Positions 22,877 to 26,331 of a stretch of 64,000 nucleotides of DNA are shown one piece after another; positions within the stretch are counted from its first letter, which is position 1, and each line of letters opens with the position of its first letter. Made by a program: the position numbers and the translations under genes. The stretch comes from Candidatus Methanoperedens sp. (GTDB lineage: Archaea > Halobacteriota > Methanosarcinia > Methanosarcinales > Methanoperedenaceae). The notes under the pieces are model-generated. The model was given only the letters and a program-made list of their open reading frames with translations, made no database searches and was not told where the DNA came from. The DNA is taken from the NCBI GenBank assembly GCA_027460525.1, contig JAPZAS010000015.1, forward strand, positions 62,001-126,000, given 5' to 3'.

Positions 22877-22939
22877 CCGTAACGTAATATAATTCCATAT
22901 ATCCCGTTACGCAATTATACGATAATAACTCCGTTACGG
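22877..22939. repeat. Phased palindrome array A (3 x CCGTWACGG, 27-bp period)
   Basis: CCGTAACG at 22877, CCGTTACG at 22904 and CCGTTACGG at 22931: spacings 27 and 27. The core CGTWACG is exact in each. The array lies between the divergent dut and small membrane protein genes. The 18-nt spacers are unrelated to each other. Confidence 0.9.
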
Positions 22940-23352: not shown

Positions 23353-23441
23353 CCGTAACGGGACTAAACATAATAAAACCCGTTACGGTATATCGTTGCA
23401 ACAATACCGTTACGCAGTTTAAGGAAATTGATTCCGTAACG
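23353..23441. repeat. Phased palindrome array B (4 x CCGTWACGG, 27-bp period)
   Basis: Units begin at 23353, 23380, 23407 and 23434, each interval exactly 27. Units 1 and 2 are full CCGTWACGG; units 3 and 4 differ only in the last base. Confidence 0.92.
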
Positions 23442-23582
23442 TAAATAGCATTTTTATTCAAACCTCTTATTTTAATTTATAGCGCATCTTCTTTACCTGT
23501 CCTTACTTCACATATCCCAGATTTCCTGAATTTTAAGTAAAAACTGGCTTTTTTCCTGGTTCATAGGTCAAAACCCACAAAA

Positions 23583-23610
23583 ACTGCGTATAAGATACAT
23601 TATACGCAGT
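23583..23610 (+). other. dif: Candidate dif site for XerA
   Basis: Two 11-bp arms, ACTGCGTATAA and TTATACGCAGT, are perfect inverted copies separated by the 6-nt centre GATACA, exactly the 11-6-11 layout of Xer recombination sites. The left inner sequence TGCGTATAA differs by one base from the XerC-side TGCGCATAA of E. coli dif. The symmetry continues to 15 bp per arm (23579-23614). It ends 37 bases before the xerA ATG. Full symmetry fits an archaeal system that uses only one recombinase. It could instead be an operator for xerA. Confidence 0.7.
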
Positions 23611-23611
23611 T

Positions 23612-23619
23612 TTTATATA
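23612..23619 (+). promoter_or_regulatory. TATA-like element for xerA, overlapping the dif-like repeat
   Basis: TTTATATA lies about 30 bases before the xerA ATG at 23648 and abuts the right arm of the inverted repeat, so protein bound at the site could block initiation. Confidence 0.5.
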
Positions 23620-23647
23620 CCCCAGGATGCAATTAAAAGATGGGATT

Positions 23648-24484
23648 ATGAAAACTGAAAATGCATCGTCTTTAAAAAAACTCGAGACAGAATTAAAACT
23701 TCGAGGTTTTTCCAGGCAAACCTCCAAAATGTACCTTTTCTATAACACCAAGTTCCTTGGATACATTAAGAAATCTCCCGAAGATGTCACAGATGATGAC
23801 ATTAAGGAGTTCCTTGCCCATAAGATGTCAGATCATGCGCTGTCAAATACATCGATAGCCCTGATAAAAGCATCACTAAAATTTTTCTACACCGACATGC
23901 TTGGAAAAAACCTGTCGCTGATAAAGACTCCGAAAGCATCAAAAAAGTTACCTGTTGTGCTCAGCCGCAAAGAGATTAAGGATATTCTGGACAATACGCA
24001 GAACTTAAAGCACAGGCTGATGGTCGAATTACTCTACTCAACGGGCTTGAGACTTTCAGAATGCATCAACCTGAAATACTCGGACATGGATCTGAACGAC
24101 GGCATCGGGTGGGTGCGCCTGGGCAAAGGCGCAAAGGACAGGATATTCATAGTTTCCGAGATGTTCAGGAAAGACCTTCTTGAATATATTGAAAAGACAG
24201 GCGCCGATGGCAAAGGGCTCATTTTTTCGGTTAACGGCAGGAAAATGTCGCCGCGCGGCATCCAGCACGCTATAAAAGTCTCAGCCGAGCGCGCCGGTAT
24301 TGAGAAGGACGTGCATGTGCACACCTTGCGGCATTCGTTCGCCACGCATCTTCTTGAGAACGGCGTGGATATCAGGAAAATCCAGAAGCTGCTGGGTCAT
24401 TCGAATTTGCAGACCACGCAGATATACACGCAGGTTTCATCTGAGGAGATTAAGAAGATTAAAAGCCCGCTGGATGCGCTGTAA
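23648..24484 (+). CDS. xerA: Tyrosine recombinase XerA
   Basis: Site-specific recombinase, presumably resolving chromosome dimers at dif. 278 residues: N-terminal SAM-like core-binding domain (~1-95), then the catalytic domain with Arg in STGLRLSE, HTLRHSFATHLL, LGHSNLQTTQIYTQV with the nucleophilic Tyr. All catalytic residues are visible, unlike the integrase remnant at 25.9 kb. The ATG at 23648 is preceded by GGGAT; the ATG at 23627 is less likely. Array C begins 3 bases after the stop. Confidence 0.92.
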   Translation: MKTENASSLKKLETELKLRGFSRQTSKMYLFYNTKFLGYIKKSPEDVTDDDIKEFLAHKMSDHALSNTSIALIKASLKFFYTDMLGKNLSLIKTPKASKKLPVVLSRKEIKDILDNTQNLKHRLMVELLYSTGLRLSECINLKYSDMDLNDGIGWVRLGKGAKDRIFIVSEMFRKDLLEYIEKTGADGKGLIFSVNGRKMSPRGIQHAIKVSAERAGIEKDVHVHTLRHSFATHLLENGVDIRKIQKLLGHSNLQTTQIYTQVSSEEIKKIKSPLDAL

Positions 24485-24487
24485 ATT

Positions 24488-24550
24488 ACGTAACGGGAAT
24501 CTCGATATATATTTCCGTAACGGGTTTTTGAATGCTGGTTACCGTAACGG
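24488..24550. repeat. Phased palindrome array C (3 x CCGTWACGG, 27-bp period)
   Basis: ACGTAACGG at 24488, CCGTAACGG at 24515 and CCGTAACGG at 24542, all 27 apart, immediately downstream of xerA. Confidence 0.92.
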
Positions 24551-25645: not shown

Positions 25646-25874
25646 ATTAAAATGTAAATTCATATTTTATTATATAAACATATACATTCTTAAAAAATTC
25701 AAGTGCAAAAGTTAGAGTTTCAAAAGCTTATTAAAGACAATTTGGTGTTTAATTGCTTATAAACTAATATTTTGTAATAATATACGTATAAATTATTTTT
25801 ATTTTAAAAAACGACATTATGGGGATTTGTTTTAGATAATGGCTTTATTGCTTAGTAATTACATATATAGTAAT

Positions 25875-26138
25875 ATGATTAGAATAATCGATCAATTCCT
25901 TCAGGAACTCAAAATTAATGGCACGGCAGAGAAAACTATCACGGATTATAGTAAATTTTTAAAGAACATCAATAGGCTTAAGTCGCTTGAAAAGTGGGAT
26001 AAAGTCGATGTGAATAGGTACATTATGGAAAAGCATAACGAATGTTTAATCGGAACAGTTGAAATTTGCAAAGTCAAGCTAAAGCGGTTTTTTACATGGG
26101 CGGACAAATCTGAAATCGTGAGCCATCTTAATACTTAA
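25875..26138 (+). pseudogene. Truncated tyrosine recombinase (core-binding domain only)
   Basis: 87 residues (or 99 from ATG 25839) matching only the N-terminal SAM-like domain: IDQFLQELKINGTAEKTITDYSKFLKNI and LKRFFTWADKSE. No Arg/HxxR/Tyr catalytic domain follows in any frame to 26365. AT-rich surroundings suggest a relic of an integrated element near the xerA/dif-like locus. Confidence 0.6.
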
Positions 26139-26295: not shown

Positions 26296-26331
26296 GCGTA
26301 ACGGAATCCTTCTCCAGATTTTCCGTAACGG
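26296..26331. repeat. Phased palindrome array D (2 x CCGTWACGG, 27-bp period)
   Basis: GCGTAACGG at 26296 and CCGTAACGG at 26323, 27 apart. A degenerate CCTTAACG at 26347 breaks the period (24). A TATA-like CTTTATATG at 26335-26343 sits directly after unit 2 and ~25 bases before the ATG at 26366. Confidence 0.85.

Follow-up and report, generated by a model that had tools for sequence, protein, structure and literature searches.

A probable chromosomal dif site beside xerA in Candidatus Methanoperedens, accompanied by phased palindromes and an AT-rich element

The window, the whole 64,000-nucleotide stretch of Candidatus Methanoperedens DNA that was analysed, carries a gene for the tyrosine recombinase XerA with a palindrome directly in front of it. 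Repeated 9-bp palindromes (CCGTWACGG) lie further out on both sides, and an AT-rich element lies between the left array and the palindrome. The features are as follows, in window positions.

22877–22939, no strand: outer left array, palindromes at 22877, 22904 and 22931, 27-bp period
23353–23442, no strand: left phased array, palindromes at 23353, 23380, 23407 and 23434, 27-bp period, the last two with one mismatch
23451–23482, + strand: conserved 32-bp AT-rich element TTTTTATTCAAACCTCTTATTTTAATTTATAG, with weaker conservation to about 23496
23583–23610, + strand: almost certainly dif, 11-bp arm ACTGCGTATAA, 6-bp spacer GATACA, 11-bp arm TTATACGCAGT; the palindrome extends to 23579–23614
23612–23619, + strand: TTTATATA, likely TATA box of xerA by consensus, 1 bp from the right dif arm
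23648–24484, + strand: xerA, tyrosine recombinase XerA, 278 aa from the conserved ATG (285 aa from the ATG at 23627)
24488–24550, no strand: right phased array, palindromes at 24488, 24515 and 24542, 27-bp period, just past the xerA stop
26296–26331, no strand: outer right pair, palindromes at 26296 and 26323, 27-bp period

The xerA product scored 270.8 bits against the archaeal XerA model NF040815 (cut-off 220) and matched the solved Pyrococcus abyssi XerA (4a8e) at 9.8e-50. Alignment to 4a8e_A placed the catalytic R-K-HxxR-H-Y residues in GLRLSE, GKGAKDR, HTLRHS, LLGHSN and IYTQV. The frame closes at 24484 and has a second in-frame ATG at 23627; relatives align from residue 6-8 onward, which makes 23648 the likely start codon. 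With the putative TATA box at 23612–23619, this start would leave xerA a short leader or none.

Among the matches listed for 120 genomes of the order, all XerA matches above the curated cut-off came from Methanoperedenaceae or family f4 (G026, G038), and the other families gave weaker relatives only. The genome studied here encodes a second intact XerA-like recombinase (G000:C6:27280-28125; L075:9278-10321), 52 percent identical and also above the NF040815 cut-off. It lies about 34 kb from an orc1 gene on the same contig, with short CAGCTACCCAGGC-type repeats upstream; immediately in front of the gene for this recombinase, a dif-like palindrome was not seen. A 99-aa ORF at 25839–26138 of the window has similarity (E 3.6e-06) restricted to the XerA N-terminal part and is perhaps a decayed duplicate.

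The palindrome in front of xerA has perfect 15-bp inverted arms around GATACA (AAAAACTGCGTATAA-GATACA-TTATACGCAGTTTTT, 23579–23614). An earlier sequence-only reading of this DNA had described these arms and their 11-6-11 layout, and both proved exact: the inner 28-mer (23583–23610) is made of two 11-bp inverted arms and a 6-bp spacer. One base separates its TGCGTATAA from E. coli TGCGCATAA. No other perfect 11-6-11 repeat occurs on the 244,776-bp contig, and a search of the 2.44-Mb genome at up to 3 mismatches found no second copy of the 28-mer. The same reading had proposed a chromosomal dif adjoining its recombinase gene, to be confirmed as occurring once per chromosome. In line with this, the site is single here, each of 29 genomes of the genus holds one dif-grade site, and the site (to 23610) adjoins xerA (from 23648). 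Symmetric arms, single copy, conservation and the recombinase next door lead us to read the site as dif, and this assignment is almost certain.

Of 31 Methanoperedens genomes, 29 carry the 11-6-11 site; the other two are 63 and 68 percent complete. Both sister-genus loci that were read carry ACTGCGTATAA-gatata-TTATACGCAGT before xerA. Arm and spacer sequences vary among relatives. The site lies within about 60 bp of xerA in 18 genomes, 200–580 bp away in eight and on another contig in G002; a contig end hides the relation in two. Five of the eight distant genomes, forming one subclade, have a small gene with an HNH-like motif between dif and xerA (L091:7748-8104; also G006, G010, G012 and G040), and its protein had no Pfam match.

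Across the 29 Methanoperedens and two sister-genus sites, the arms fall into symmetric sets (ACTGCGTATAA, ATGTCGTATAA, AGTACGTATAA and ACTGTATATAA). Five arm positions change on both sides together and the inner TATAA is nearly invariant. This agrees with a single recombinase, as the sequence-only reading had argued from the full symmetry of the site. Four genomes (G004, G011, G040 and G043) carry a dif with two different arm types, which looks transitional or recombinant. The spacer is always 6 bp long and takes 18 sequence forms. Each of them matches KRTNNR when read one way but not the other; this consensus was itself derived from these spacers. Six reverse-complement pairs occur among the forms, against 0.66 expected and a maximum of 5 in 20,000 column shuffles. 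At least 10 switches of spacer orientation map onto the XerA tree, and between G015 and G040 the spacer is flipped between flanks of 91–95 percent identity. Such freedom to invert would suit a lone enzyme working on symmetric arms and suggests that dif orientation is free where the arms are symmetric. Hairpin template switching and XerA itself are candidate causes.

Nearly every species has its own gene order upstream of dif (L076-L098), while downstream the order from xerA to a ubiD-like gene is often kept. The variable upstream side may mean that dif marks a rearrangement boundary. In G040 an insert sits between array and dif, so foreign DNA has not entered at dif itself.

We also checked xerA loci elsewhere in the Halobacteriota. 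Of 70 such loci, 46 had a dif-like site in the 240 bases before xerA, compared with 7 of 350 background windows. The first of these sites had already been seen when the motif rule was drawn up; a motif-free count gave 33/70 against 23/350. Families f8 (11 loci) and f26 (6 loci) had such a site throughout, and some sites come near bacterial dif, e.g. ATTGCGCATAA-tgtcta-TTATGCGCAAT. The order dif, TATA box, xerA is not peculiar to this genome, and the geometry of right arm and TATA box is common to many genera. The wide linkage of xerA and dif offers a simple rule for locating dif in methanogens and their relatives.

GC skew was noisy and showed no switch at dif, both on the contig of the window (C15) and on C3 of G015. 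In 20 closed single-contig genomes, all from families other than Methanoperedenaceae, xerA/dif lay at a mean of 131 degrees from the main orc1 over 11 genera that are not fully independent (P=0.004 against uniform), and in two closed genomes it lay at 179 degrees. The distance from orc1 agrees with a terminus bias in those other families and says nothing direct on Methanoperedens, whose own orc1 genes are on contigs other than that of dif.

Three other readings of the palindrome were weighed. A transcription terminator or RNA hairpin, in which a stem is followed by a T run, would account for the perfect stem and the TTTTT behind it. We find this scarcely credible: the arm symmetry runs into A/T tracts on both flanks, the site is kept in relatives despite differing upstream genes and orientations, and the inner TATAA-N6-TTATA matches dif. 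Rfam returned no family above its gathering score except the tRNA and thus lends the hairpin no support. It is also highly improbable that the site is the attachment scar of an integrated Xer-using (IMEX-like) element. The hybrid arms of the four genomes named above and the dif-like sites beside integrase genes on mobile-looking contigs would suit such an origin, but this genome has a single site, so that no dif-like pair surrounds foreign DNA, no element flanks it, and the site is ancestral to the family.

Here the likely TATA box, assigned by consensus, directly adjoins the right arm, in keeping with the earlier view that dif overlaps the xerA promoter. In most Methanoperedens genomes TTTTATATA likewise stands behind the right arm, and several Halobacteriota families retain this position. 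The palindrome could thus be mainly an operator through which XerA or another dimeric regulator represses xerA, with recombination secondary. This appears very unlikely, since the eight distant genomes hold a near-perfect site that is not beside a TATA box and G002 has it on another contig. The fixed 6-bp spacer of variable sequence and the likeness to P. abyssi dif also suit a recombination site better. Judging from these same genomes, promoter coupling of dif is dispensable and autorepression cannot be its main function. XerA bound to dif may still damp its own transcription, as the right arm touches the TATA box; this would be an optional by-product.

Neither the phased palindromes nor the AT-rich element that go with dif had been noticed in the sequence-only reading. 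Seven copies of CCGTWACGG occur in the window against 0.11 expected, six of them within 3.5 kb of dif. On the examined contigs, 141 exact copies fell in the 167 kb within 3 kb of dif and 11 in 812 kb elsewhere, a 62-fold higher density. Spacing was 27 bp in 119 of 230 cases and 26 bp in 24. A paired-palindrome pattern was found in exactly the 29 dif-bearing genomes, with 0 matches for a reversed control, and among the matches listed it lay nearly always within a few kb of dif (exception: G007 C158). Tandem Repeats Finder did not detect the arrays, presumably since only 9 of 27 bases repeat. A published description of this dif site or of the arrays was not found.

The AT-rich element here stands 132 bp from dif and 13 bp from the last palindrome, measured to its centre. 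In 26 of the 29 Methanoperedens genomes, TTTTTATTCAAACCTCTTATTTTAATTTATRG has the array on one side and dif on the other (G013, G017 and G023 lack the element), and in a stricter search the strong copies came down to essentially a single one per genome, located at dif. The start of the element lies 17–20 bp from the last palindrome centre in 22 of 25 measured loci and 13 bp in two, including our own. Its distance to dif is about 150 bp (104–163 bp in 22 of the 25). The tight spacing to the array and the looser distance to dif indicate that array and element form a rigid block. The sister genus has the arrays and lacks the element, and neither was seen at Methanomicrobiales and Methanocella-like loci. 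XerA thus does not generally require array and element.

The left array (C61:49893-50137) and the element have both remained with dif (C61:49707) in G002. On C117, where xerA of this genome lies, neither is present, and its TATA box is preceded by no more than an eroded half-arm. This ties the block to dif and not to transcription of xerA. G002 is a single metagenome assembly in which misbinning is possible; dif and xerA both lie in contig interiors, and dif arm type and XerA tree position both group with the sister species G003 and G018.

Secondary dif-like sites, e.g. ACTGCATATAA-N6-TTATATGCAGT, were observed in mobile-looking stretches: L301 (G018:C12:23764), L302 (G020:C57:4095), L303 (G007:C56:42298) and L306 (G021:C97:74235). 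They are weaker than dif grade; three adjoin XerA-like integrases and one a phage-type primase, and they are possibly Xer-exploiting elements. CCGTWACGG arrays were absent from these four sites. In IMG/VR, a loose dif core gave 43 matches, mostly unrelated by eye, with a full type-D site in L170; dif variants B and C gave none. Array pairs gave nine IMG/VR matches, mostly GC-rich or isolated and none beside a Methanoperedens-type dif. A plasmid search with the dif-array region returned no match.

In bacteria, FtsK controls the timing and topology of Xer recombination at such sites. Reviews describe its control in archaea, which lack FtsK, as open (PMC8371274, PMC5357621). We propose that XerA would bind each 11-bp dif arm and that the two dif sites of a chromosome dimer would synapse. 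Cleavage at the two ends of the 6-bp spacer and strand exchange would then give monomers. From the site, its single copy, the recombinase, conservation and symmetry we infer catalysis and dimer resolution at dif. The palindromes and the AT-rich element are predicted accessory sites, which would bind one or more DNA-bending or bridging proteins in a complex with XerA-dif, and this complex would decide when or in which topology recombination proceeds. Taken together, a chromosomal dif at which XerA resolves dimers, with array and element as sites for accessory proteins, is the best explanation of the locus as a whole, and we hold it to be very probable.

What the accessory proteins would do is less settled. 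A composite dif, in which arrays and rigid element bind a dedicated protein that gates XerA or organises the terminus and so replaces FtsK in archaea, has in our estimate slightly less than an even chance. Somewhat doubtful, yet still to be reckoned with, is that array and element form a terminus-organising or centromere-like locus (with a MatP/matS- or ParB/parS-like role) or a fork-arrest region with which dif merely coincides. The arrays extend on both sides of dif over 1–3 kb, further than a compact synaptic complex would call for, and hardly occur outside the dif locus. That array and element are rigidly spaced and recur about 150 bp from dif points instead to one complex, and palindromes have no polarity, unlike a Tus-like fork trap. 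Operators for xerA or neighbouring genes would fit the intergenic placement of the arrays up- and downstream of xerA. They are nevertheless unlikely, as array and element stay with dif in G002 and are absent at its xerA locus, and as the block persists between genomes in which the upstream genes change.

A dif in the xerA promoter with two previously unnoticed flanking elements may show how archaea control recombination without an FtsK motor. Cis elements that travel with dif and are almost confined to it could serve as DNA bait for the missing protein and as a minimal construct in resolution assays.

Plasmid sites such as cer and psi combine a Xer core with a protein-binding sequence about 150-200 bp to one side, bound by ArgR/PepA or ArcA. 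Here the conserved array and element lie about 150 bp from a chromosomal dif, and arrays occur on both sides. A close system is XerA/dif of P. abyssi and other Thermococcales (PMC2958812, PMC3646895), which shares a single recombinase of the same family, the 11-6-11 layout and one copy per genome. The tested P. abyssi dif, ATTGGATATAATCGGCCTTATATCTAAA (PMC2958812), has TATAA-N6-TTATA in common with Methanoperedens dif. Thermococcales dif lies away from xerA, whereas Methanoperedens dif overlaps the xerA promoter and has perfectly symmetric arms, palindromes and an AT-rich element. In Sulfolobales, dif is predicted close to xerA, as here, and is flanked on one side by a short conserved 13-bp sequence; 27-bp phased palindromes are not mentioned (PMC2958812). 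XerS/difSL of streptococci and lactococci and XerH/difH of epsilonproteobacteria likewise pair one recombinase with a site beside its gene (PMC5357621). XerS and XerH are, however, about 355 aa long and work with FtsK, against 278 aa for Methanoperedens XerA, and difSL has an 11-bp centre and unequal arms where Methanoperedens dif has a 6-bp centre and equal arms (PMC5357621). That a single recombinase can be linked to its site was thus known before, from Sulfolobales (PMC2958812) and from XerS/difSL and XerH/difH (PMC5357621); the Methanoperedens locus is a XerA/dif system with a new cis layout.
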